A stretch of 26,206 bases of DNA from a virus, in IMG/VR virus record IMGVR_UViG_3300031234_000251, positions 1-26,206 of that record. The stretch is one strand, 5' to 3'. Below are positions 8 through 24,438 of the stretch, piece after piece. Position 1 is the stretch's first letter. The number at the start of each line of letters is the position of its first letter. The position numbers and the translations under genes are program-made. The notes beneath the pieces are model-generated. The model was not told the DNA's origin and did no database searches. It saw only the letters and a list, made by a program, of their open reading frames with translations.

Positions 8-1234
8 ATGACTGAAAAAAATTATGGAACTTATTACCCCAAGTTTTGGGATGACAACGATAATTCAACTTGGAAATGGCAGGTAGGACATAATTTTACT
101 TATAAACAATTGCCGTTCAATTCGATTGGCGATGATAATTTTAGTAAATATGTGTCCTTTGATAATTGGAAACCTATATCGGCAAAACAAAATTTCTATA
201 ATATGATTGAACAAATGCGTCATACAAAAAGAAAACGAGATTTTATCACCGATTATACGAAGGAACATATTGCAAATACATACGCAAAATATGAAACTCT
301 TTATGAGGCGGCCAAGGAACTAAATGTAGCATATGAAGAATTAAAAAGTTTTATGATTGAAAATAATTTACCATATATTACACGTCAAAAATATACATGC
401 GATCACGATTTCTTTTCCAGAGATGATGAAAAATGTTTCTATTGGGCAGGATTTATTGCAGCTGATGGGAATGTAAGTAAAAATAGACTTATGATCGAAT
501 TGGCAGTTAAAGATATTGGACATCTTGAAAAATGGAAGGCGGCAATTCAAAGCACTGCCCCAATAACAACTTATGAAAAAACTGATGATCGTCCTGAATT
601 CAAAAGAGAATCATACACATCGTGTCGTATAAGATTTAATTCGGTAAAAATTGTTAAAGATTTGAAGCGATTTAATATTGTTCCAAATAAAAGCCTTACT
701 TATAACATTCCTGATTGGTTAATAATTCATCCGCTATTTAATCACTTTTTAAGAGGATTGATCGATGGAGATGGACATTGTGCAGGCGAGAAGAACTCTT
801 CTAATATGAATATTGCCGGGTCTATAGCCGCTACTGCAAAATTGGCAAAAATTTGCGAATTATATTTGGGACATTTTAGATATCATATAAGAGATGAAAA
901 ATTAGGAATAATTGGTTGTTCTAATATTAAAGATAATAGTAAGATAATTAACTTCTTATTAAAAGATGCTACTATATGGCTTGATAGAAAGCACGAAACC
1001 CAACTACAGATATTGCGAATGATTCCTAGAAAAATAAAGATCAGTAAAAAAGTGCTAGAAGCAATGATAAAAGAAACTCCTATTGTAATTGGATCGGCAG
1101 TCAAAACTTATACTGAAATTGGTAGAAAACTTGGGGTTAGTCCATCAGTAATTGTAAGAAGACTTGTTGAGTTTGATTTATACCACCCTACTGTAATAAC
1201 GGATAGAGTGAGAACGGTTAATCAGTATTGTTAA
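8..1234 (+). CDS. LAGLIDADG homing endonuclease (start may lie upstream of window)
   Basis: A 408-residue protein with the two LAGLIDADG motifs of a monomeric homing endonuclease: YWAGFIAADG at about residues 145-154 and FLRGLIDGDGH at about 247-257. Each motif supplies an acidic residue for metal-dependent cleavage of a long DNA site. A helix-turn-helix-like segment precedes them (about 84-122, TKEHIAN...AAKELNV), and another lies near the C-terminus (about 367-390, YTEIGRKLGVSPSVI); both probably contact DNA. The first 75 or so residues are rich in W, Y, F and N and match no homing domain I know. The frame stays open upstream to the window edge, so the ATG at 8 may not be the real start. 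The gene faces the minus-strand structural genes and ends 39 bp before the stop of the next one, so it is free-standing and not in an intron there. The family is clear; the target site is unknown. Confidence 0.88.
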   Translation: MTEKNYGTYYPKFWDDNDNSTWKWQVGHNFTYKQLPFNSIGDDNFSKYVSFDNWKPISAKQNFYNMIEQMRHTKRKRDFITDYTKEHIANTYAKYETLYEAAKELNVAYEELKSFMIENNLPYITRQKYTCDHDFFSRDDEKCFYWAGFIAADGNVSKNRLMIELAVKDIGHLEKWKAAIQSTAPITTYEKTDDRPEFKRESYTSCRIRFNSVKIVKDLKRFNIVPNKSLTYNIPDWLIIHPLFNHFLRGLIDGDGHCAGEKNSSNMNIAGSIAATAKLAKICELYLGHFRYHIRDEKLGIIGCSNIKDNSKIINFLLKDATIWLDRKHETQLQILRMIPRKIKISKKVLEAMIKETPIVIGSAVKTYTEIGRKLGVSPSVIVRRLVEFDLYHPTVITDRVRTVNQYC

Positions 1235-3479: not shown

Positions 3480-3914
3480 ATGAAAACTTATACTAAATAT
3501 CCCGAATTTTGGGTAACCAATGCGTCCCCAATGAACGTGACTTTGGCAGATCTTGCCATAAATATAAGATCATTTAGTACGGTTAATTTATTAGATAAGA
3601 AACATTATAGCTTAACTTTAGACCAATTAATTAAATCAAAAAACTCAGGATCTATATTTCATAAGCGAGACAAAATACTTGTTAGACACTTACCTCCACC
3701 TGCTGTGGAAAAAGAGAGATTGCCATTTCTAAAAGATGCCGTTATGCCTTCTAAAGAAAAATCTATTTTTGTTATCAATGCAGTAGAATATGATGAACTC
3801 AAAATTACTGAAGAAAAAGAAAATCAAAATAAAACAGATGAAGAATATGCAAAAGAAGCGACAGAATTAATTGAAAATGATATACATCAACCTGTTAATT
3901 CAAGGAAGTTATAA
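3480..3914 (+). CDS. Conserved-looking phage protein of unknown function
   Basis: A 144-residue hydrophilic protein and the only plus-strand gene here that does not look like a nuclease. The N-terminal two thirds (FWVTNASPMNVTLADLAIN, NLLDKKHYSLTLDQLIKS, SGSIFHKRDKILVRHLPPP) read like a compact alpha/beta domain. From about residue 108 it becomes a Glu/Lys/Asn-rich, probably helical tail. There is no membrane segment, cysteine cluster or catalytic motif. It is divergent from the fibre-domain gene at 2758-3447, with 32 AT-rich bases between and no clear Shine-Dalgarno. It ends exactly where the tnpB element begins. I expect a small virion or assembly protein, but the sequence does not prove that. 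Confidence 0.6.
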   Translation: MKTYTKYPEFWVTNASPMNVTLADLAINIRSFSTVNLLDKKHYSLTLDQLIKSKNSGSIFHKRDKILVRHLPPPAVEKERLPFLKDAVMPSKEKSIFVINAVEYDELKITEEKENQNKTDEEYAKEATELIENDIHQPVNSRKL

Positions 3915-3923
3915 GTGAACTAC

Positions 3924-5048
3924 TCATCGCCTAAAGGCGAGAGCTTCTTGGATCGTCATTGATCCAACATATGACGGTTGAGCCATCATAGCCTGTCCCA
4001 GGCAAAAAACGTTTTGTGCCGCATTTTCATCTCTATCGTATATTTTTCCACAACTACAAGTTATTGTTCGATCTGAAAGCTTCAAATCAATATGTATCTT
4101 GCCGCACGAATTGCAGGTCTTGGATGTATTTCTTGGATTGACTAAAACTAAATGATTAGTCTTGTAGCCAAGAAACGAAAGAAACTGTGCTAATTTAGCA
4201 TTGCGAATGCTTCTGTTTAGGTTCGTCCATTTGCCTTCTGACATTGATTTGACAGATAGGTCTTCTGCATAGATTGTATCATATGTTGAACCAAGTGTTT
4301 TTGACACCTTATGCTGATAGTCATTGATCTTTCTGACTTTTGCATCATACAATCTATTTGCTACTTTCTTGAGAAACTTATACTTTCTACTACCTTTAAC
4401 TACTTGATCTTTTCTGCTTTGAACTTTAGCAATCTGCTTATCAAAGTATTTGCTATCAGTTCTATTTTTAATCTTCAAACCATCAGTAGCAACAACTAAA
4501 TGTTTCAAACCAATATCAATTCCAATACTACCAGATACTTTAGTTGCTTCTATATGATCGGTTGTGATATTGAGATAGAACTTATTATTCTTATTTGAAA
4601 CTCTAACTTGTTTGATTTGACCTTTCAAATCTCGATGTTGGACAAACGACATTTGTCCATATACTTTGGTCTGAAAGATACCATTTTCAATCTTGAAACC
4701 AGATTGAGGATAACAGATACCGAAAAAGTTTTGGCAACTGCGAAACTTTGGAAAACCAGAAGTTTCTTTGGCTTTTACTCTTCTAAAGAATGACTGATAA
4801 CTACGATCTAATCGAAGTGGAACTTGCTGCAAAACTTGGCTGTGCATCTCATCTAAAACGGTATCACTAGCTTTCAAAGAAATAAGTTCGGCTTGTTGTT
4901 CTTTTCTACCTATCTTGATACCATTTTTATAGTTTTCAATTCGTTGATTTAGAAAATAATTATATAGACTGTTAAGCTTATTAGCGTGTTGCCATAATTT
5001 AACTTGCTGCTCTTTAGTTGGATATAAGCGATATTGAAAAGTGATCAT
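3924..5048 (-). CDS. tnpB: TnpB RNA-guided nuclease, IS200/IS605 family
   Basis: A 374-residue TnpB of normal length, a compact relative of Cas12 that cleaves DNA using a guide RNA made from the element's end. The start MITFQYRLYPTKEQ is typical of the family. The RuvC residues all appear present: Asp in GIDIG (about 178), Glu in YAEDLS (about 262) and Asp in YDRDENAAQN (about 338/340). The zinc-ribbon cysteines are CNSC (312, 315) and CSC (331, 333). The guide RNA would be expected to overlap the 3' end of the gene and run past the stop. A TATAAT hexamer lies about 27 bases before the ATG (5075-5080), without a good -35 box. There are no frameshifts, so it is probably active. In a phage it may act like a homing nuclease. 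Confidence 0.95.
   Translation of the reverse strand: MITFQYRLYPTKEQQVKLWQHANKLNSLYNYFLNQRIENYKNGIKIGRKEQQAELISLKASDTVLDEMHSQVLQQVPLRLDRSYQSFFRRVKAKETSGFPKFRSCQNFFGICYPQSGFKIENGIFQTKVYGQMSFVQHRDLKGQIKQVRVSNKNNKFYLNITTDHIEATKVSGSIGIDIGLKHLVVATDGLKIKNRTDSKYFDKQIAKVQSRKDQVVKGSRKYKFLKKVANRLYDAKVRKINDYQHKVSKTLGSTYDTIYAEDLSVKSMSEGKWTNLNRSIRNAKLAQFLSFLGYKTNHLVLVNPRNTSKTCNSCGKIHIDLKLSDRTITCSCGKIYDRDENAAQNVFCLGQAMMAQPSYVGSMTIQEALAFRR
3927..3940. repeat. Right-end hairpin of the tnpB element
   Basis: A 5-bp stem TCGCC/GGCGA with loop TAAA. It forms within the last codons of tnpB (Ala-Phe-Arg-Arg-stop). It has the same loop and inner GCC/GGC pairs as the hairpin at 5130-5145, as expected for the two ends of an IS605-type element. 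The guide RNA would be made from this end. Confidence 0.65.
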
Positions 5049-5129
5049 TCTTGTTCTGCTCTTTGATTTTCCGTATTATATATCGAACTATTAATAGATG
5101 CGATCAACTTTCGGTATCGCATTCATCCA

Positions 5130-5145
5130 CCTGCCTAAAGGCAGG
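5130..5145. repeat. Left-end hairpin of the tnpB element
   Basis: A 6-bp perfect stem CCTGCC/GGCAGG with loop TAAA, about 80 bases upstream of the tnpB start and 20 bases from the end of the cold-shock gene. It is the partner of the hairpin at the other end. A longer flanking match (CATTC at about 5119 against GAATG at about 5157) may enlarge the structure. Confidence 0.65.
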
Positions 5146-5165
5146 GGATTTCTGCGGAATGTAGG

Positions 5166-5405
5166 TTAATTTTTAAGCACCGTTACATTAATTGCTTTTG
5201 GGTCGCCATGATTATTTGTACCAATTTGGAAACTGACCTTTTGTAATTTGAAAAGCGTCTTAAAACCATCGCAACAAACATCAGAAAAATGCACGAACAT
5301 ATCTTTTTGCTTAATTCCATCTTTTTCCCACCGCAAAAATCCTATTCCACGGGCGGGACTAAACCAAATTACTTCCGCATAATACACAGTCTTATCTTCA
5401 CTCAT
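5166..5405 (-). CDS. Cold-shock domain protein
   Basis: A 79-residue single-domain cold-shock protein. Both RNA-binding motifs are recognisable: RNP1-like GIGFLRW (about 20-26; usual form KGYGFI) and RNP2-like MFVHFSDV (about 36-43; usual form VFVHFS). The family folds as a five-stranded OB barrel that binds single-stranded RNA or DNA and melts structure in mRNA. It differs from host CspA types in the RNP1 spacing and in a Cys-Cys pair (44-45), so it is a diverged phage version. AAGGAAA precedes the ATG. The gene lies 11 bp after the unknown gene at 5417-5755, and the tnpB element begins directly after its stop. It may tune phage or host mRNA translation. Confidence 0.85.
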   Translation of the reverse strand: MSEDKTVYYAEVIWFSPARGIGFLRWEKDGIKQKDMFVHFSDVCCDGFKTLFKLQKVSFQIGTNNHGDPKAINVTVLKN

Positions 5406-5416
5406 ATTTATTTCCT

Positions 5417-5755
5417 TTATTTATCTTTGTAAACTAATTCACCATCAATATACAGCTCACCTTTGTGAGAGTCTAATCCTTGAATTACCATTGCATTGCT
5501 ATTTTTCAATGAAGCGAAACATTCTCCTAATAATTTATATACGGAGATACCGCCTAATTTACTGATATCCTTAATTTTATCAGGATTATCAGTAGTACGT
5601 AAAAGCTTATCAAATTTTACAAAGAGCAACAACATATCCTGTTCTCTTCCAGCCCAACGAGCTACGGTTAAAAACTTTTTACGAGTAGTCACTTCATCAG
5701 TTACTTTATTGGAAATGTCATTAGGATTTGTTGAATCAAATAATAGTTCTTTCAT
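5417..5755 (-). CDS. Hypothetical phage protein
   Basis: A 112-residue soluble protein of mixed composition. The N-terminus is acidic (MKELLFDSTNPNDISN), a central helical part follows (REQDMLLLFVKFDKLLRTT), and the C-terminus looks like a small beta hairpin (GELYIDGELVYKDK). I see no family motif, cysteine cluster or membrane segment. AGGAGAAA lies at good spacing before the ATG. It is transcribed just ahead of the cold-shock gene, with an 11-bp gap, and the two are probably one operon. The function is unknown. Confidence 0.6.
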   Translation of the reverse strand: MKELLFDSTNPNDISNKVTDEVTTRKKFLTVARWAGREQDMLLLFVKFDKLLRTTDNPDKIKDISKLGGISVYKLLGECFASLKNSNAMVIQGLDSHKGELYIDGELVYKDK

Positions 5756-5788
5756 ATTGTCTTTCTCCTACTTCAATCTATATATCAA

Positions 5789-6754
5789 TTAAACGACTGC
5801 CCATCCCGCTGCAGTAAAACAAATCATTATGGCTTCATAATTTTGTGCCATTACATATGGCGTTGTTCCATCAATATTATTTCCATTACCAGCAATAGAT
5901 ATATTGTGTGTCGCTGCTACGCCCGTAGTATCCTTTACCTCGTAAATGTCTCCTATAGTCGGAGTAGCAGGCAATGTAACGGTAATGGCACCTGTAATAG
6001 CGCCCACTGCAATTATTTCATCTGTTACTAATACTTGATAGCTTATAGTGGTTGGCGTAACATTAACTCTGCGACCAATACTTGTAATGAACTTGGACGC
6101 ATTCATAGAGACCAAAGTCGTATTGTTAACAGACAAATCAATGGTTCCGCTTGTTGGAACATTCACAACGGTGGTGGTGGAATTGGCATCCAAAGTATAA
6201 TTAGTAGCAGATGGCGTAATGCCAGGTTGTAACCAAATAGCGGTGTTGGAAGAACCAGATCCAACAAGAGGTCCTATTCTAGCTACAAAAGTTCCACCGC
6301 GATTGATTACCAAGCCTGCTTCTATACCGGTACCAATAGGGGCTTGTAAATTAATTATTAAATTGCCAGAACCCTGATTGGTAGCCTGAGTGGATTGCTG
6401 TGGAGCGATTGTTATATTTTGGCCTTGAGTTGCCGAAGGTGTAGCTAATTGAGAGAGCCCAGGTGAAGTGGTTGCCGCAACCCATGTAATAACATTACCC
6501 GTAGAAGCGGTTCCAACGCTAACAACTCCGGTATTTCCCGTAATAGAAATTACGTTATTAGATGCCGTAATACCAGTTACATCACCGACTAAACCTTGGT
6601 AACCTTGATTAACGGCTGGCAATATACCAGTAGTAACGTTAGCAATTGACACAACAGTAGGACTAGGATAAGTTCCGCTCAAATCTCCAGAGGCCGGACC
6701 ATTAGGAGGTCCGCTGCCACCGCCGACAAATGGAATTGGAATTATTTGACTCAT
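5789..6754 (-). CDS. Tail fibre-like protein
   Basis: A 321-residue protein with the composition of a phage fibre: rich in Thr, Gly, Asn, Val and Ile, no cysteine-based site and no membrane segment. The N-terminus has a glycine/proline linker followed by ASGDLSGTYPSPTVVSI, a motif common in fibre and collar proteins. The middle is repetitive (VVSVGTASTGNVITWVA, NLIINLQAPIG). The last 85 or so residues (YQVLVTDEIIAV...ITVTLPATPTIGDIYEVKDTTG...) form a compact beta domain often found at fibre tips. The small gene at 6900-7244 lies upstream. The receptor or sugar bound is unknown. Confidence 0.75.
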   Translation of the reverse strand: MSQIIPIPFVGGGSGPPNGPASGDLSGTYPSPTVVSIANVTTGILPAVNQGYQGLVGDVTGITASNNVISITGNTGVVSVGTASTGNVITWVAATTSPGLSQLATPSATQGQNITIAPQQSTQATNQGSGNLIINLQAPIGTGIEAGLVINRGGTFVARIGPLVGSGSSNTAIWLQPGITPSATNYTLDANSTTTVVNVPTSGTIDLSVNNTTLVSMNASKFITSIGRRVNVTPTTISYQVLVTDEIIAVGAITGAITVTLPATPTIGDIYEVKDTTGVAATHNISIAGNGNNIDGTTPYVMAQNYEAIMICFTAAGWAVV

Positions 6755-6769
6755 ACTTTACTCTTTAAT

Positions 6770-6871
6770 TCACGTATCATCACTATATGCTTGATTAACG
6801 CCTGATAAAGTTCGTAAAATTTTATTTTTCATATCATCATTTTTATTGCACAAGATAATAATCAAATCCAT
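6770..6871 (-). CDS. Possible 33-residue small protein
   Basis: A short open frame fills most of the gap between two fibre-type genes. It starts MDLIIILCNKNDDMKNK and ends QAYSDDT. GAAGAG lies about 6 bases before its ATG, an acceptable ribosome-binding site. The first eight residues are hydrophobic but too short to span a membrane. There is no family resemblance, and at this length it could be chance; it is listed because spacing and start signal fit a gene. Confidence 0.3.
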   Translation of the reverse strand: MDLIIILCNKNDDMKNKILRTLSGVNQAYSDDT

Positions 6872-6899
6872 AATCTACTCTTCAAAATCAATAGATACT

Positions 6900-7244
6900 T
6901 CAGCGTGTTGCCCACGCCCGAACTGAAATCGTGGTTGCGACACTTCCCGATGCAAGTTGAAACCAAATTTTACACATAACACGATCATCAAAAACAAATC
7001 CTTGAATAAGTGCTGGATTAATTTCACCATCAATACTATTACCATTAGTAGAGTATTGAATAGTATTAGCAGCAGTAGTTCCAGTATTAAGAATAATTAT
7101 GCCCTGTGTAGGAAAAGTAATAACAACATCGCAATCCACGTTGAATGTGGTTGCCGTAACAACAAATTTATTGTAATAATTAAAGTTACGGCCATAATTT
7201 ATAGTGGCTTTTGGGTCGCTAGAACGATCATATGGGAAACTCAT
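6900..7244 (-). CDS. Small beta-rich virion protein
   Basis: A 114-residue protein rich in Thr, Val, Ile and Asn, with strand-like periodicity (VDCDVVITFPTQGIIILNTG, DRVMCKIWFQLASGS). This suggests a small beta-sandwich. It shares the NGNSIDG pattern with the fibre-tip domain of the neighbouring 321-residue protein (GNGNNIDG), so the two may have related tip folds. AGGAG precedes the ATG at good spacing. It lies between the patatin gene and the fibre gene on the same strand. A minor fibre or tip component is likely, but no named family is recognised. Confidence 0.6.
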   Translation of the reverse strand: MSFPYDRSSDPKATINYGRNFNYYNKFVVTATTFNVDCDVVITFPTQGIIILNTGTTAANTIQYSTNGNSIDGEINPALIQGFVFDDRVMCKIWFQLASGSVATTISVRAWATR

Positions 7245-7272
7245 ACATACTCCTGTTTCTATGCGAAAGTAT

Positions 7273-8133
7273 TCATATTATATATTTAAGTTGAGCATCT
7301 TTATACCCTTTATTAATCATCTCTCTAATTTTTATTGGGTCAAAATCTAAAACATTATCTATTAAATTGTAATGTGGTTTTATAATACGAAGCTTAATTA
7401 GCTTTCTATCATCTAATCCAGCTTCGGCTAATTTGTTATGCATTTGAGCAATCTCAATGTCATTGGATAAAATTTTATCTGTAGCAACATCAAATGCACG
7501 CCTAACAATATCGATGATATTAGGATCTTTCATGAACTTTTTATCTCTAACATCTGGCGAAGTTGTAATAACATCTATCTCTGTCGCTCCCATTTCTATG
7601 GCAACTTTGATGGGCGATAGAATTTTCATTCCTCCATCTATATATAGATCGTTGTCTATTTTCACTGGGCAAAATGCGGCTGGAAAAGCAGAACTTGCTA
7701 ATATAGCATCAATAAAATTATCACTATCTTGATTAAAAATTGTATATTTACCAGTGTGTAAATTGAGCGCCCCAACTGCTACTTTTTTACCAGAAGCTCT
7801 AATTTTTTCCAGACTAATATTTTCTTTGATTAAATAGTGTAACGGAGAACTATCATAAAAAGACTTGCGCCAAGCTGCCGCCATTCTTCCCCAAACTGGC
7901 CATGGTTTATATATTTTTGAAGAGTCTAATTTGAGCCACATATCAGTTAGCTCAGATGCTGCTAATTTTTCTTGACCTATCGGGAATTGCGCGAGGAAGG
8001 AACTATTTATTGCTCCGACACTAGTTCCACATAATATGGAATAATCGTTTTGCAAATTGCCAAGTAAATAATTGATTACTCCGCTTGCCCAAGCACCTTT
8101 GCTAGATCCACCTGATTGGACAATCGCACGCAT
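7273..8133 (-). CDS. Patatin-like phospholipase
   Basis: A 286-residue protein with the patatin motifs in order. A glycine-rich oxyanion loop GGSSKGAW (about 8-15) comes first, then the nucleophile elbow GTSVG with Ser38, and YIDGG with Asp166, which completes the Ser-Asp dyad. Patatins hydrolyse acyl chains from phospholipids and related lipids, and length and motif spacing are normal for bacterial ones. There is no signal peptide or membrane segment. Its ATG shares one base with the TAA of a 47-residue gene, which itself overlaps a membrane-anchored coiled-coil gene, so the three are probably co-translated. The context suggests membrane attack at lysis or during entry, but a virion-bound role is also possible. 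The family call is firm. Confidence 0.93.
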   Translation of the reverse strand: MRAIVQSGGSSKGAWASGVINYLLGNLQNDYSILCGTSVGAINSSFLAQFPIGQEKLAASELTDMWLKLDSSKIYKPWPVWGRMAAAWRKSFYDSSPLHYLIKENISLEKIRASGKKVAVGALNLHTGKYTIFNQDSDNFIDAILASSAFPAAFCPVKIDNDLYIDGGMKILSPIKVAIEMGATEIDVITTSPDVRDKKFMKDPNIIDIVRRAFDVATDKILSNDIEIAQMHNKLAEAGLDDRKLIKLRIIKPHYNLIDNVLDFDPIKIREMINKGYKDAQLKYII

Positions 8134-17913: not shown

Positions 17914-18480
17914 TCAGGAGCTAATTCTATTAGTATTAGCTTGTAAATTAAGTTTTTTATATAGTTTATTATGGGTATCACGCAAGAAGTCTTGTTGTTT
18001 GTCTGAAAGTTTAGCCAATGATTTTGGATTGCGAAACTTTTCGTAGATATTATGCAAAAATTCTTTATATGGCTTGAATTCATTTGGGATAATTTGCAAC
18101 TCAAATCTAACGCCATCAATATCTAAATCGACATGTATAATGCCATGATACTCTAATCTATGTTCTTTAGATCTAACTGTATTTTTATCTACGCTTTTAA
18201 TTTGATGTCCAAACAATTTTTGTATAATGTTCATAGCATCTTTATGTTGAAACTGATCTGAAAAGAATAATCTACCTCTAACTAAATCAGATAATTCTAA
18301 TGGATTTTTAACATGATCAAGTTCCATTTTACGCTTAACACTAGCATACGGCTTAACATTAGTTTCTAATTCAAACTCTGAAGGCGGCAAATCAGACAAT
18401 TGGTCCTGCACATGCTTCAAAGCTTTATTTAGCTTTGGCACAGATTGCATATAATTTTTACGAAGTTGCTTGGTATCCAT
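17914..18480 (-). CDS. RelA/SpoT-like nucleotidyltransferase-fold protein
   Basis: A 188-residue protein matching the pattern of the (p)ppGpp synthetase domain. In order: a basic stretch with Ser (VKPYASVKRKME, about 42-53), the Asp motif DLVRGRLFF (65-73; usual DLxGxRI), the Tyr-His strand YHGIIHVDLDIDG (111-123), the Glu motif FELQIIP (126-132; usual ExQIRT), and HNIYEK (143-148; usual HxxYE). The catalytic Asp and Glu positions are kept. No hydrolase, TGS or ACT domain is present, so it resembles small alarmone synthetases or toxSAS toxins in size. Its ATG lies one base after the TAA of the 203-residue gene. It may make or transfer nucleotide signals, or be an inactive relative reused in assembly. 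Confidence 0.75.
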   Translation of the reverse strand: MDTKQLRKNYMQSVPKLNKALKHVQDQLSDLPPSEFELETNVKPYASVKRKMELDHVKNPLELSDLVRGRLFFSDQFQHKDAMNIIQKLFGHQIKSVDKNTVRSKEHRLEYHGIIHVDLDIDGVRFELQIIPNEFKPYKEFLHNIYEKFRNPKSLAKLSDKQQDFLRDTHNKLYKKLNLQANTNRISS

Positions 18481-19120: not shown

Positions 19121-20311
19121 TTAAACTAACTTTTTAATAGAATTAAAATCATTCTCCCAAATAGCTATTAAATTATATTTAGTTTTAATTAAAATCTCTT
19201 TATCCATTGTTTTTTGATACAACTCGCCAAAACTTTTATGACAAGTATAATTTTCATCCTTCATATCATAAATTGTTGGATTACCATGATAATAATCTCC
19301 ATAAAATTCATAAACAGTATTGGTAATTGGATCAAATCCATCTACCCTAATCCACTTGTCTCCAAATAATAGTTTCTTTTGTTTTTCCAATTTGATATTC
19401 AAACTATTAAGCCATTGCAATTCTGGTATAGATATCTTATGACAACAATTAGGACATCTATTTCCTCCAATCTTACTTGGACTTCCCGTTCTGGAATTAA
19501 TGGAGGCTTCCCAACTATGATTTTTATTACATTTCCACCATACTTTATTTCTTGATCCACACCCAGCGGTATATTGTTCTGGGCGAGTGGCATTTTTATC
19601 ATAATCCCATTCTTTACATAATTCAGGATGTGTTATGGTTAAATTATTTTTACTATTTACTTGTTTTCCCGAACAATATGGACAGCCACAACTACCATCT
19701 ATATGTGCGTTAACTATACTACATATACTTGCGGTAAAATATTCTAAGCAATCATTGCACTTAACTTCTACTTTTTTAGAACTAAACGGTGTAATTTCAT
19801 TTGCCACTTGTGAATCACGTAATCTTTTAGCGACATCTGGATATAATGTACCAAGACTATTAGTATTATTAGTTTTTTTGCCATCACAAAATGGACAATC
19901 AGATCCGTCACTTGTTCTTTTATTAATTTTTGCTTTAAATTGTGAAAAACATTTACTGCAATTCCAATATACACGCTCTTCCGATCCATAATTTGTTTTA
20001 AACGGATCAACAACATTTAATGTAAAATCCCATTCTTTTTCTAATCGTGGGCTATGTTCAAATACATTAGTTTTTAGCTTAGATTGTCTTGGTAAAAATT
20101 TCATATGCTTACAATTATCAAACTTCCTATCTTTTGTATTAAAGACCCTTACCCAATTTTTGACAGAATTAAAATATTGCTCCCCACATTTAGAACAATT
20201 TAACCAATACTTGATATTTGATCCCGCTGTTATAAAATCTATTTTTGGATTTCTATCACGATCAAATTCTTCTTTTAATTTAGGGTATAAATCAAACGCA
20301 TTATCTTTCAT
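19121..20311 (-). CDS. Zinc-ribbon repeat, Vsr-like (EDxHD-type) endonuclease
   Basis: A 396-residue protein with four zinc-ribbon units spaced 70-80 residues apart (cysteines about 39/42, 118/121 with 139/142, 185/188 with 210/213, 261 with 286/289). The repeats contain the HPELCKEWDYDKN...TAGCGSRNKVWWKC pattern of zinc-ribbon arrays that bind DNA. A C-terminal nuclease of the Vsr fold follows: Glu297 (PELQW), Asp324 (RVDGFD), Glu335, Asp339 and His342 (YEFYGDYYHGNP). These are the residues expected for the EDxHD homing family (type I-Bth0305I). Ribbon 1 is incomplete. Its ATG overlaps the stop of the LAGLIDADG-methyltransferase gene (ATGA), so the two are translationally coupled. It most likely makes the cut for a shared mobile cassette. 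Confidence 0.82.
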   Translation of the reverse strand: MKDNAFDLYPKLKEEFDRDRNPKIDFITAGSNIKYWLNCSKCGEQYFNSVKNWVRVFNTKDRKFDNCKHMKFLPRQSKLKTNVFEHSPRLEKEWDFTLNVVDPFKTNYGSEERVYWNCSKCFSQFKAKINKRTSDGSDCPFCDGKKTNNTNSLGTLYPDVAKRLRDSQVANEITPFSSKKVEVKCNDCLEYFTASICSIVNAHIDGSCGCPYCSGKQVNSKNNLTITHPELCKEWDYDKNATRPEQYTAGCGSRNKVWWKCNKNHSWEASINSRTGSPSKIGGNRCPNCCHKISIPELQWLNSLNIKLEKQKKLLFGDKWIRVDGFDPITNTVYEFYGDYYHGNPTIYDMKDENYTCHKSFGELYQKTMDKEILIKTKYNLIAIWENDFNSIKKLV

Positions 20312-22419
20312 TTTATGTTCCTAAATATATAAATTGGCTCAAATTTTTCAATTCCGGATTTTTTAGTTAGATGATTTCTGATCGTACGAAGATGTACGAT
20401 CTCAATAGGTTCGCCAAACTGTTCTTTTGCCATATCTGTCATCTTTGTATATTTAGCCAAAATATTAAGCCCGAATATCTTTTCAGGCTTTAACATATAT
20501 TTTATATTGTTCAATGTCTGTTTCCAATATACGTTATAGAAATAATCCTCCCCGTTATTATATGCTTGCGTCTTATCAGAACAGTAATACTCTTGTGAAT
20601 AATACGGAGGACTGCTAAAACTAAAATCAATGCTATTTTCTGCCAATTTTACATGTTCAGAACCAGAAGTAATTAGCTGAATATCTTTTAACGATAATTC
20701 TTGTTTCATAATTCTTAATTCATCTATTGTTAATGGATCTGTTCCGATATATTTGCGATTGCAACTCGCGGCAGCTAACATTCTTCCGCCCCAACCGGCA
20801 CTATAATCATATACGGAATCACCTTCATTACTATATTTCATATATAAATATTTTGCTATATTAGGCTTGAACATCGAGATACTTGGAACTAATCTAGACG
20901 ATCTCATTCCCTGAATTAACATTCTAAAAGAGATATTAAATGTTTCATCATTATCTTCTTTATCCCACCAATCGAAGCCAAGTCTATTTTTAATAAGAAA
21001 GCGTAATTTATCATCATTATTAAAAACTTCCTTCATAGTTGGCTTACCTTCTTCTGTAGCATCATAGAACTTATGGCAATAAAACTTACAAATATCAGTA
21101 GCTAATGAACTGTTATTGAATAACTCACTGCTAGTTAAGTCAGGCTGGAATTCAACCAATTTTTTCCAGCTCTTAAATACTCTCGTAGGATCATCTGGAT
21201 ACAACCAACCCTGATTTCTAAAAAGTTTAAACAGCGGTTCTACCAGAGCCATTCTCTCATCAAAATCCAATGTCTTAACATATTTAATTGTTATTGGCTG
21301 ATTATTTATAGAAACTATCTTGTCGAATAGATAACTATCATCGTGTTTTATTTTAGTGATTGTTCTCTGGTGTATTTGATGTTGTTTAGCTATATCCATT
21401 ATATTAGCTCCATTCTTTATTTCATTCATAATGTTTTGTTTTTCTATTTCTGAAACCTTATATTCTTTGCGACTAAAAGTTCTGTTATTTTGTTGCTCTA
21501 TTAAATCAAGATATTTCTGATATTTTCTATCTAATCTGATAGATTTGTCGGCATTTTTATATAACCATTCCGCTAATTTAAGCACCTTTATATTACCATT
21601 GCTCTCTAATTCATAAGTGTTATTATTTGTTTTGGAAATATACCTTAAATTAATTATAAGTTTAAGTTGATCTAAAACTATTTGTTGAATTGATTCGCCA
21701 CATTCTTTTGTTGTAGCCAAAGACCATTTCCACTCACCATTTTCTCTTCTACATAAAGAGCCATCTCCATCAAACATCCCTCTAATGAAAGAAACGGTTA
21801 ACTCGGGTAGAAGCCATTCTGGATATTTTATTATAAAACTTTTAGCTTGTGGACACCCATTTTTATTAAGAGTTTCACATAAATGTTTGCTATACATTTT
21901 TAATGTATAATACTCATAATCTTCTTTAGTTTTTGTATATGTTATTTTGGTTATAGGTAATTCAATAAAAATTGCTAATTTTTGCAAATGAGTTAAATCA
22001 CTAATTTGTAAAGATAATGATACCGTATTATTTGTATTACTATTATAAGCATCAGCATACAAAAATCCTAACCAATATGCCTTTTCTGGAGAATCAATTA
22101 TATCAAAAATGTTTTGATTGAATTCTGTGAATCTGTGTGACGATGCCCTATTTCTTAAAATATTATTTTCATTTGCCCATTTTTGTATTCTGCGTTTATC
22201 TATGGAATATTTTATTCCTAGAGATTTTGCCGAAACGCCTTGGTCATATAAATCACAAATATAAATAATTTTATCATTAGAAAAATTTTCTTTAACAATT
22301 TTCCATTCATTTTGTAAAATTATTTGTTTGATTTCTTTTGTTGGCGCTTGCAATATGCCGGCGATTCTTTTAATTGCAAATCCGTCCTCGACCATCTGTT
22401 TAATTTTTTCGATGTCCAT
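20308..22419 (-). CDS. LAGLIDADG homing endonuclease fused to DNA methyltransferase
   Basis: A 703-residue fusion. The N-terminal helix-turn-helix region (about 1-90) leads into a LAGLIDADG nuclease with motifs YWLGFLYADAY (115-125) and FIRGMFDGDGS (211-221). A second helix-turn-helix follows (about 320-360, IMDIAKQHQIHQRTITKI). From about 380 comes an amino-methyltransferase, with AdoMet motif DYSAGWGGR (538-546) and catalytic SSPPYYS (602-608), the form used for N4-cytosine or N6-adenine. The frame extends to 22521, but those codons cross a terminator hairpin. GAGGG seven bases before the ATG at 22419 marks the true start. There is no intein splice signature. It overlaps the zinc-ribbon nuclease gene by ATGA and lies directly downstream of the capsid terminator. 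The pair may cut and protect the same locus. Confidence 0.9.
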   Translation of the reverse strand: MDIEKIKQMVEDGFAIKRIAGILQAPTKEIKQIILQNEWKIVKENFSNDKIIYICDLYDQGVSAKSLGIKYSIDKRRIQKWANENNILRNRASSHRFTEFNQNIFDIIDSPEKAYWLGFLYADAYNSNTNNTVSLSLQISDLTHLQKLAIFIELPITKITYTKTKEDYEYYTLKMYSKHLCETLNKNGCPQAKSFIIKYPEWLLPELTVSFIRGMFDGDGSLCRRENGEWKWSLATTKECGESIQQIVLDQLKLIINLRYISKTNNNTYELESNGNIKVLKLAEWLYKNADKSIRLDRKYQKYLDLIEQQNNRTFSRKEYKVSEIEKQNIMNEIKNGANIMDIAKQHQIHQRTITKIKHDDSYLFDKIVSINNQPITIKYVKTLDFDERMALVEPLFKLFRNQGWLYPDDPTRVFKSWKKLVEFQPDLTSSELFNNSSLATDICKFYCHKFYDATEEGKPTMKEVFNNDDKLRFLIKNRLGFDWWDKEDNDETFNISFRMLIQGMRSSRLVPSISMFKPNIAKYLYMKYSNEGDSVYDYSAGWGGRMLAAASCNRKYIGTDPLTIDELRIMKQELSLKDIQLITSGSEHVKLAENSIDFSFSSPPYYSQEYYCSDKTQAYNNGEDYFYNVYWKQTLNNIKYMLKPEKIFGLNILAKYTKMTDMAKEQFGEPIEIVHLRTIRNHLTKKSGIEKFEPIYIFRNIK

Positions 22420-22544: not shown

Positions 22545-23558
22545 TTAAGCCCCGATGATTACTGATTTACGACCTGCTGCTGTTCCTCTTGGATTAACAA
22601 TTGCAATGCCGATAATTTCAGAAATTACCCATCCTAATTTTAATTGTTTTGGCTCGTCCGCTGGCAATACCTCGATGTCTTGACGTATTGGCATTACTCC
22701 AACAAACTCAGGGTCGGCTACACCGTAGATCGTTCCAGGTGGCACTATCTTACTTACCATAATATCAGTTCCCCAGATATGAGCATACAATCCGGTTTGT
22801 AGAACTTCACGCATAGTAACGGGATCGAAATCTCCGCCGCCTACGCCTTGTCCACCGCCTGAACCCCACTTTAGAATATCAGTAAACTCATTGATGTTCA
22901 TAAAGTACTTGGTTGTTACTAAGTCCCAACGATCAATTTGTTGTTTGATTTCAACTAAGTCTCTCTTTAGAAGACCTGCATCTGCAATGTCAGTTAGAGT
23001 ATTTTCAACTGAAGCAGCTGCATCGAGGGCCGCAAAGATGTTTGCATCTTCTTGAGCCATGATTTCTTGACGAGCCTTCTGAACAGCTCTGTCGATTACG
23101 TTGAATCTGCGTCTTTTAACTTCGGCGATTCTCACGGTTGGATTTGCGTAAACTTCGAACTCGGGAACAACTACTCTGTCACCGAATACTCTGGACTCTG
23201 GCCCAGTACCGTTTGAAGAGATTACAACTGCGGCAACATCGATATCACGATCGTAAGTTGGCATTGCACCTTGTGGAAGAGGATCAACTACGAGGGCTCT
23301 TCTTGCTATCCCGTGATAGTCTAAATTCCTGCGAATAGGATTTGCCATTGCTTGAGCAAGAGCAATTTTGCCATCTTGGGTCATTATAGCGCGCGTTATT
23401 AATTCATCACGCTTATCATCTGATAAGCTTGGTTGGCCTGCAAGGCCTTGATTGGATGGAACATTCTCTTCTAAAATACTTGCATATTTAACGAGTTGCG
23501 CTAATGCCTCTTTGAGAGAACCTGCGTTAACTTGTCCTTGGTTACTAAACATATTCAT
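22545..23558 (-). CDS. Major capsid protein, HK97-like fold
   Basis: A 337-residue protein that I assign as the major capsid protein. The N-terminal 60 or so residues are helical (SLKEALAQLVKYASILEEN), as in a delta-like or scaffolding arm. The rest has the mix expected of the HK97 fold: PTYDRDIDVAAVVIS, a strand-rich E-loop region (FGDRVVVPEFEVYANPTVRI), a long spine helix (VIDRAVQKARQEIMAQEDAN) and a late A-domain (GVADPEFVGVMPIRQDIEVL). It has its own late-type promoter box and strong terminator, as expected for the most abundant virion protein. GGAGA precedes the ATG. Base composition looks more balanced than in the flanking nuclease genes. The call rests on pattern and context; the exact family is not resolved. 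Confidence 0.82.
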   Translation of the reverse strand: MNMFSNQGQVNAGSLKEALAQLVKYASILEENVPSNQGLAGQPSLSDDKRDELITRAIMTQDGKIALAQAMANPIRRNLDYHGIARRALVVDPLPQGAMPTYDRDIDVAAVVISSNGTGPESRVFGDRVVVPEFEVYANPTVRIAEVKRRRFNVIDRAVQKARQEIMAQEDANIFAALDAAASVENTLTDIADAGLLKRDLVEIKQQIDRWDLVTTKYFMNINEFTDILKWGSGGGQGVGGGDFDPVTMREVLQTGLYAHIWGTDIMVSKIVPPGTIYGVADPEFVGVMPIRQDIEVLPADEPKQLKLGWVISEIIGIAIVNPRGTAAGRKSVIIGA

Positions 23559-23694: not shown

Positions 23695-24438
23695 ATGATT
23701 ATTATATTAATTATGCGAGCTATAAATCCAGTCATTTATTTAATAATGAACCATGTTAATGGTAAATGTTATATTGGCAAAACAATCGATCCTATCCAAA
23801 GATGGAGAGATCATCAACCACCAAAAACAAAAAATTACCCTATTCAATATGCTATACTAAAACATAAAGTTGAAAACTTTACTTTTGATATAATAGAAAG
23901 ATTTTCTCTTGAATCAGAATTAGAAGAAGCTGAAATTTGGTGGATCGCATATTTGAGAAGTCTGGGCGCACAACTTTACAACATCACTGATGGTGGCGAT
24001 GGTATTAGTGGATATCATCATACTGCAGAAACTAAACAACTACTTTCCAAAAATAGAAAAGACCTTATTGCCACTGGATGGATTCCAATCAAACATACCG
24101 AAGAGTTCAAGCAACAACTAAGTCAAAATATGATTGGACATACTTATAATACTGATAGAGTCCATCCCCCAGATTGCCTTCATTGTTCTGAGTTAGTTAA
24201 ACGCAATAAAACTAACAATCCATCTCGAAGCGGCGACCCTGATGTCAAAAAGAAAATGAGTAAGAAAAAAATTGGGTCATTAAATAACCAAGCAATAATG
24301 ACTGAAGAAAAAGTAGTTGAACTACGCCAATTATCAAAACAAGGAATGTCTAACAAAGAGTTAAGCATTAAATTTGGAATAGCCGTTACCACTGTTAGTG
24401 GCATTAAAAATAGAAAAAGTTGGAAGCATGTTGATTAA
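23695..24438 (+). CDS. GIY-YIG homing endonuclease
   Basis: Up to 247 residues, with an alternative start at 23713 (MRAINPVIYL) that better fits the family's usual short lead. The GIY-YIG module is complete: VIYLI then CYIGKT, the catalytic Arg in QRWRDH, and the metal-binding Glu in the EEAEIWWIAYLRSLG helix, followed by YNITDGGDG. Behind it come NUMOD3-like minor-groove motifs (HTAETKQLLSKN, DPDVKKKMSKKKIG). A C-terminal helix-turn-helix closes it (TEEKVVELRQLSKQGMSNKE...NRKSWKHV). It lies between the capsid gene and its upstream neighbour, on the opposite strand, in a free-standing position. No good Shine-Dalgarno is seen. It appears intact and probably cleaves a site at this junction. Confidence 0.93.
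   Translation: MIIILIMRAINPVIYLIMNHVNGKCYIGKTIDPIQRWRDHQPPKTKNYPIQYAILKHKVENFTFDIIERFSLESELEEAEIWWIAYLRSLGAQLYNITDGGDGISGYHHTAETKQLLSKNRKDLIATGWIPIKHTEEFKQQLSQNMIGHTYNTDRVHPPDCLHCSELVKRNKTNNPSRSGDPDVKKKMSKKKIGSLNNQAIMTEEKVVELRQLSKQGMSNKELSIKFGIAVTTVSGIKNRKSWKHVD

Follow-up and report, generated by a model that had tools for sequence, protein, structure and literature searches.

A single gene of the phage record IMGVR_UViG_3300031234_000251 joins a LAGLIDADG homing endonuclease to a DNA amino-methyltransferase (MTase). The window analysed is the whole IMG/VR record (26,206 bp), and the fusion protein it encodes, P0001, lies directly 3' of the major capsid gene. Both active sites of P0001 are intact, the gene is mobile at its site, and MTases of the same family are fused to unrelated nucleases near capsid genes in other phages. 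We put at about an even chance the reading that this is a free-standing homing endonuclease gene whose carrier is made self-immune by methylation, in which the MTase would modify the element's own target. The gene and its parts are as follows.

20308-22419, minus strand: P0001, LAGLIDADG homing endonuclease and DNA amino-MTase fusion, 703 amino acids, with its ATG at 22419
22150-22419, minus strand: N-terminal helix-turn-helix (HTH) region, residues 1-90; six short helices in the AlphaFold2 (AF2) model, with PHROG and Pfam HTH matches in relatives
21550-22107, minus strand: LAGLIDADG core, residues 105-290; PF14528, AF2 fold, Foldseek matches to I-Tsp061I and I-AniI
22051-22053 and 21763-21765, minus strand: codons of catalytic Asp 123 and Asp 219, respectively, both Asp kept in 15/16 fusions
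21340-21456, minus strand: HTH between nuclease and MTase, residues 322-360; PF13518/PF13384
20311-21324, minus strand: MTase domain, residues 366-703; PF01555 (weak), phrog_498, PADLOC Type II MTase models

P0001 consists, in order, of two HTH units, a two-motif LAGLIDADG core, a further HTH, and an amino-MTase of the SPPY type. A first-pass annotation made from the DNA alone had described one protein with both LAGLIDADG motifs and an amino-MTase with intact S-adenosylmethionine (AdoMet) and SPPY motifs, placed at the capsid junction, and both points hold: open reading frames (ORFs), profiles and the AF2 fold agree on the protein, and the neighbouring capsid gene belongs to phrog_2522. The nuclease part scores barely over the cut-off for LAGLIDADG_3 (PF14528, 22.8 vs 22.5 bits) and matches phrog_4645 'endonuclease' (E 2e-49). 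The MTase part scores under the cut-off for N6_N4_Mtase (PF01555, 21.0 vs 26.7) and matches phrog_498 'DNA methyltransferase' (E 9e-9), and its family profile matches solved DNA cytosine-N4 MTases. The AF2 model (predicted local distance difference test 83, predicted template-modelling score 0.52) contains a Rossmann MTase and, as in a monomeric LAGLIDADG enzyme, two alpha-beta-beta-alpha repeats. The nearest PDB folds found by Foldseek are the homing endonuclease I-Tsp061I, I-AniI and the bI3 maturase for the nuclease part, and Trm11-type MTases for the MTase part.

The LAGLIDADG motifs (YWLGFLYAD and FIRGMFDGDG) carry their catalytic acidic residues, and the MTase has AdoMet motif I (DYSAGWGGRML) and catalytic motif IV (SSPPYY). 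When 16 distinct fusions are aligned, both LAGLIDADG Asp residues and all MTase motifs are intact in 15, at 28-70% identity, and MTase motifs I and IV are kept in all 16; no active-looking nuclease is paired with a broken MTase in this set. The exception, L348, has Lys in place of the second LAGLIDADG Asp, with its MTase motifs intact. The ratio of nonsynonymous to synonymous substitution rates (dN/dS) is ∼0.2 for the nuclease part and ∼0.1 for the MTase part, with dS near saturation; judged from sequence, both halves are under purifying selection. These data bear on the idea that cutting has become dispensable for the LAGLIDADG/HTH part, which would instead provide DNA recognition for the MTase, with a role such as regulating late capsid transcription or marking the locus. 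The position beside the capsid gene, the HTHs on both sides of the core, and the lost catalytic Asp of L348 would fit such a role. Retention of both catalytic Asp residues in the other 15 divergent fusions, the patchy presence of the element, and the occupation of the same place by other, unrelated nucleases make it improbable. The L348 fusion itself lies at L348:12712-14643 (minus strand), where a distinct LAGLIDADG-type gene separates it from the capsid gene; the same phage also carries an unfused MTase and its associated transferase (described below) 7 kb from the fusion.

The capsid side of the locus is laid out as follows.

22545-23558, minus strand: major capsid protein gene; phrog_2522 (E 2e-78), 54% identical to gp27 of Bacillus phage G
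22486-22515, minus strand: intrinsic terminator after the capsid gene, a 12-bp stem and U-run; the P0001 element begins past it

Relatives of P0001 were collected from viral contig scans and one further genomic region; an alignment query retrieved the family, where a LAGLIDADG-only protein query had retrieved identical copies only. The resulting 16 distinct LAGLIDADG_3–MTase fusions of the P0001 lineage, with identities down to 28%, occur in large phages, so the MTase is not always separate in homologues. All but a few are found 3' of a capsid gene and oriented like it, most with a spacing of ∼50-320 nt; the L029 fusion is inverted, and in L007 and L024 another homing-type gene lies in between. 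Of the relatives inspected, nearly all have a terminator hairpin at the equivalent place behind the capsid gene, whether the site is occupied or empty; the hairpin is followed by the element or else by the next structural gene. An Rfam search of the window found no intron or other known RNA element.

A capsid search returned 80 loci from the same phage clade, giving 65 usable distinct capsid alleles and one duplicate row. The comparison with cassette-free relatives at the capsid junction that the first-pass annotation had proposed is therefore available: 12 of the 65 alleles have the LAGLIDADG–MTase fusion and 41 have neither MTase nor LAGLIDADG, while 8 have an MTase that is not joined to this LAGLIDADG type (including the LAGLIDADG_2 fusion of L210). 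The fusion label is scattered over the capsid tree, with 11 changes for 12 rows, of which strongly supported branches force only 4, and some of the rows labelled as empty end too early to judge whether the fusion is present. The fusion is thus mobile by presence and absence at the capsid-3' site among close relatives. Among loci from the capsid search alone, MTase and LAGLIDADG co-occur (6/7 vs 4/44, Fisher 8e-5). The MTase family was not found in 13 of 17 large records searched whole (up to 481 kb); of the other four, three have a clear member, in the capsid region only, and one has a marginal 35-residue match. This argues that the MTase is part of the mobile gene and not an old resident, and invasion of a resident MTase by a homing gene was rejected since most of the large cassette-free records lack the family.

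For the self-immune reading, the following course is proposed. The element is inserted immediately beyond the capsid-gene terminator. When a cassette-free phage co-infects, the LAGLIDADG core would cut it at a conserved site within or close to the capsid region, and the element would then be copied into the cut phage by recombination. The fused MTase would methylate the nuclease's own site in the carrier DNA, sparing the carrier from cutting though its capsid gene is uninterrupted and cannot freely diverge, and cassette-free rival phages would be excluded. Enforced retention of the element, also put forward in the first-pass annotation, would likewise be a conjectured effect. The cut made by free-standing nucleases of the T4 type may be hundreds or thousands of bases away from the nuclease gene (PMC2988022), so that insertion leaves the target site intact; with the site intact and a conserved capsid gene hardly able to diverge, methylation would solve the problem of self-cutting. 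By analogy, P0001 may be likened to a single-chain (Type IIG-like) restriction-modification enzyme with homing specificity.

The same MTase family is also joined to other nucleases. Fusions to LAGLIDADG_2 occur in L210 (LR745208), L256, L274 and L315, and in L338, a contig from an archaeal bin, where the LAGLIDADG_2 score is slightly under the cut-off. The fusion partner is a Vsr nuclease bearing zinc fingers and NUMOD3 in L018 (LR756508), a TnsA-like nuclease in L218 and L342, and a DUF7487 protein in L292. Most of these fusions lie just 3' of a capsid gene, of either phrog_2522 or the T4-gp23 type (phrog_138). A capsid gene is found ≤1.5 kb upstream, with the MTase 3', for 10/12 nuclease-fused and 1/117 standalone MTases (p 3e-12), and without the window's lineage 5/7 nuclease-fused MTases are near a capsid gene (p 6e-7); these p-values serve as guides only because the samples are interrelated and were picked for resemblance to the MTase of the window. 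A functional link between nuclease and MTase is made likely by the relatives that carry other nuclease families. A broader proposal, to which we give somewhat less than an even chance, is a class of self-immune homing elements in large phages in which members of one MTase family have on several occasions become fused to mobile nucleases of unrelated types (LAGLIDADG_3, LAGLIDADG_2, Vsr and TnsA-like) near capsid genes. If so, the carrier would be protected by methylation and not by interruption or divergence of the target, and the element could adjoin and keep attacking a conserved gene while excluding cassette-free rivals. Two of these loci have further features: in L210 (reverse complement 3787-7476), from a 485-kb phage, a 1229-amino-acid protein with two LAGLIDADG_2 domains, MTase and zinc ribbons is encoded directly 3' of the capsid gene, and in L018 a phrog_3339 homing endonuclease (L018:439-2148) immediately precedes the Vsr–MTase fusion.

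Where MTases of the clade are unfused, they nearly always adjoin a protein of 250 amino acids, here called protein X, often with a 4-nt overlap. Protein X has the LPG_synthase_C/FemX/MprF fold; it has no significant PHROG match and was not found in the phage record collection. Its loci are as follows.

Protein X: L032:2574-3323; L008:5159-5896; L028:1459-2199; L030:1143-1898; L034:5243-5995
Protein X, further loci: L037:5309-6064; L040:5237-5995; L041:5231-5995; L196:9585-10337

The possibility that protein X is a restriction nuclease was rejected on account of this fold. Together with the unfused MTase it could form an independent DNA-modification pair, possibly a two-enzyme hypermodification pair. 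A LAGLIDADG gene lies right behind the capsid gene in 5 of the 7 alleles with a separate MTase. In L032 the order is capsid–LAGLIDADG–X–MTase, and there the LAGLIDADG protein stops at the point at which the fusion's nuclease half stops, and the MTase begins at the point at which the fusion's MTase half begins; the fusion could therefore have arisen by loss of X, although this direction is an inference. The unfused MTase at L034:6013-7026 has SPAY as its motif IV and is perhaps inactive.

Such pairs lend weight to an alternative in which the MTase is cargo that modifies phage DNA against host restriction, alone or with the FemX/MprF-like acyl/aminoacyl transferase. The homing nuclease would then merely spread the MTase, the fusion would be a by-product of crowding at a homing hot spot, and the nuclease site would not be protected by the MTase. 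Standalone members of the family are common across phages of many kinds; L196 retains transferase and MTase beside a remnant of the LAGLIDADG gene, and L348 retains its MTase after loss of one nuclease catalytic residue. On the other hand, the family is fused to at least four nuclease classes near capsid genes, far above the rate of standalone members there, most nuclease active sites are kept, and cassette-free phages of the clade lack the family and would thereby forgo a general benefit. We give cargo a lower chance than self-immunity, though it stays a live competitor.

Several observations count against self-immunity by methylation. A LAGLIDADG gene without MTase occupies the same site in 4/65 capsid alleles, which implies that protection by the MTase is not obligatory, and the pairing of unfused relatives with the FemX/MprF-like transferase implies that the MTase can act without the nuclease. 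Most members of the family are standalone (117 of the sampled loci), and no co-conversion signal was found at the capsid 3' end in comparison with other fusion carriers. Furthermore, the counts of fusions and loci are not phylogenetically independent.

The gene that follows P0001 encodes a zinc-ribbon protein, P0003.

19121-20311, minus strand: P0003, DUF4379 zinc-ribbon nuclease, 396 amino acids; PF14311 x4
20308-20311, minus strand: ATGA overlap of P0001 and P0003, comprising the P0003 start ATG and the P0001 stop TGA
19124-19435, minus strand: Vsr/EDxHD-like nuclease core at the P0003 C-terminus; E, VD, E, D and H in 12 relatives

In the first-pass annotation, P0003 was given four zinc ribbons and an EDxHD/Vsr-type nuclease, and with P0001 was taken for a coupled, possibly self-protecting cassette. 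The ATGA overlap (20311-20308 on the minus strand) and the ribbons, as four DUF4379 repeats (E 5e-40), are borne out. The C-terminal core (E...VD...YEFxGDxxHG) is kept in 12 relatives and aligns with the Vsr domain (hhalign 80%); as no PDB nuclease was matched by sequence, the Vsr/EDxHD label stands on the motif and a weak profile match. Of the coupled cassette, the homing nuclease–MTase unit proves recurrent and mobile with its active sites kept, whereas a dedicated zinc-ribbon nuclease partner does not emerge. Likewise, in the gene-order search the fusion beside the capsid gene recurs, whereas MTase followed by zinc-ribbon nuclease is found in three phages only.

A single three-part system, with the MTase giving protection from each of the two nucleases, would be favored by the gene overlap, kept in form in the window, L007 and L008 (11 and 35 nt in the latter two) and so not unique to this phage. 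Most LAGLIDADG–MTase fusions have no P0003-type nuclease, however, and in L008 the zinc-ribbon nuclease is paired with an unfused MTase, with no adjacent LAGLIDADG. Among ∼80 P0003 relatives fetched, only those of the three phages are next to this MTase, and most lie behind unrelated genes, often overlapping them. An obligate partnership of P0003 with the MTase was rejected on these grounds, and we consider the three-part system very unlikely. P0003 is probably a separate, independently mobile free-standing nuclease, most likely a second arrival that landed at the MTase stop codon.

Other homing-type genes are found around these capsid genes. In the window, a GIY-YIG/NUMOD3 homing endonuclease (23695-24438, plus strand) lies on the other side of the capsid gene on the opposite strand, and a second HTH–LAGLIDADG_3 protein, with 28% identity to the nuclease part of P0001, lies at the record edge (8-1234, plus strand). 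A small gene (17914-18480, minus strand) has a weak match to a RelA/SpoT region (PF04607, 23.2 bits; cut-off 27), and in some cassette-free relatives its homolog comes immediately after the capsid gene. The capsid gene is split by homing-type ORFs at L006:3084-3914, L007:2267-3205, L211:938-1864 and L349:8660-13713, the last in four matched pieces. An NCBIfam search gave nothing useful for the window proteins, and DNA-level similarity to named phages is confined to short patches.

What usually separates homing genes from restriction-modification systems is the way in which the carrier avoids being cut: through a broken or diverged target in the former, through methylation in the latter. A phage gene that combines the two kinds would be a natural link between them. 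A self-protecting fusion would explain how a nuclease gene persists beside a capsid gene that is unable to change its sequence, and such fusions would offer ready-made pairs of long-site nuclease and protector. Repeated fusion with unrelated nucleases at similar loci makes the avoidance of self-cutting by free-standing homing genes directly testable.

Among known systems, the free-standing Seg and Mob homing endonucleases of T4 resemble P0001 in being intergenic, not borne by introns, placed beside a conserved gene, and patchy among relatives. SegD lies between genes 23 and 24 and, like P0001, adjoins a capsid gene; a review of the T4 enzymes makes no mention of a methyltransferase (PMC2988022). 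The T4 enzymes are GIY-YIG and HNH nucleases, whereas P0001 is a LAGLIDADG nuclease joined to an MTase. In single-chain restriction-modification enzymes, those of Type IIG among them (e.g. MmeI), one polypeptide carries nuclease and amino-MTase as in P0001; their nuclease is mainly PD-(D/E)XK. Type II restriction endonucleases are described as three themes, PD-D/EXK, HNH and GIY-YIG (PMC4081073), and P0001 falls outside them because its nuclease is LAGLIDADG; unlike Type IIG enzymes, its gene behaves as a capsid-linked phage homing element. A laboratory fusion of the Eco29kI R and M genes, in which a GIY-YIG nuclease and its MTase are reported to work as a hybrid (PMC3039593), provides proof of principle for joining a homing-type nuclease to an MTase, although it is engineered and derives from a bacterial restriction system.

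EDxHD/Vsr-like homing endonucleases share with P0003 the core residues E, D, D and H and the zinc ribbons; P0003 differs in its four DUF4379 repeats and in having no significant sequence match to a solved member. Orphan phage DNA amino-MTases (Vibrio phage 2.058.O, Twortvirinae) belong to the same MTase family as P0001, but are standalone, of ∼330 amino acids, and not beside capsid or homing genes. Our literature search found no homing endonuclease–methyltransferase fusion, which is no proof that none exists, and a jumbo-phage paper (PMC7824862) does not mention 'homing' or 'LAGLIDADG'. The parts of P0001 are thus of known kinds, while their combination, recurrence and capsid linkage appear new to us, with a minority chance that they represent a distinct class.
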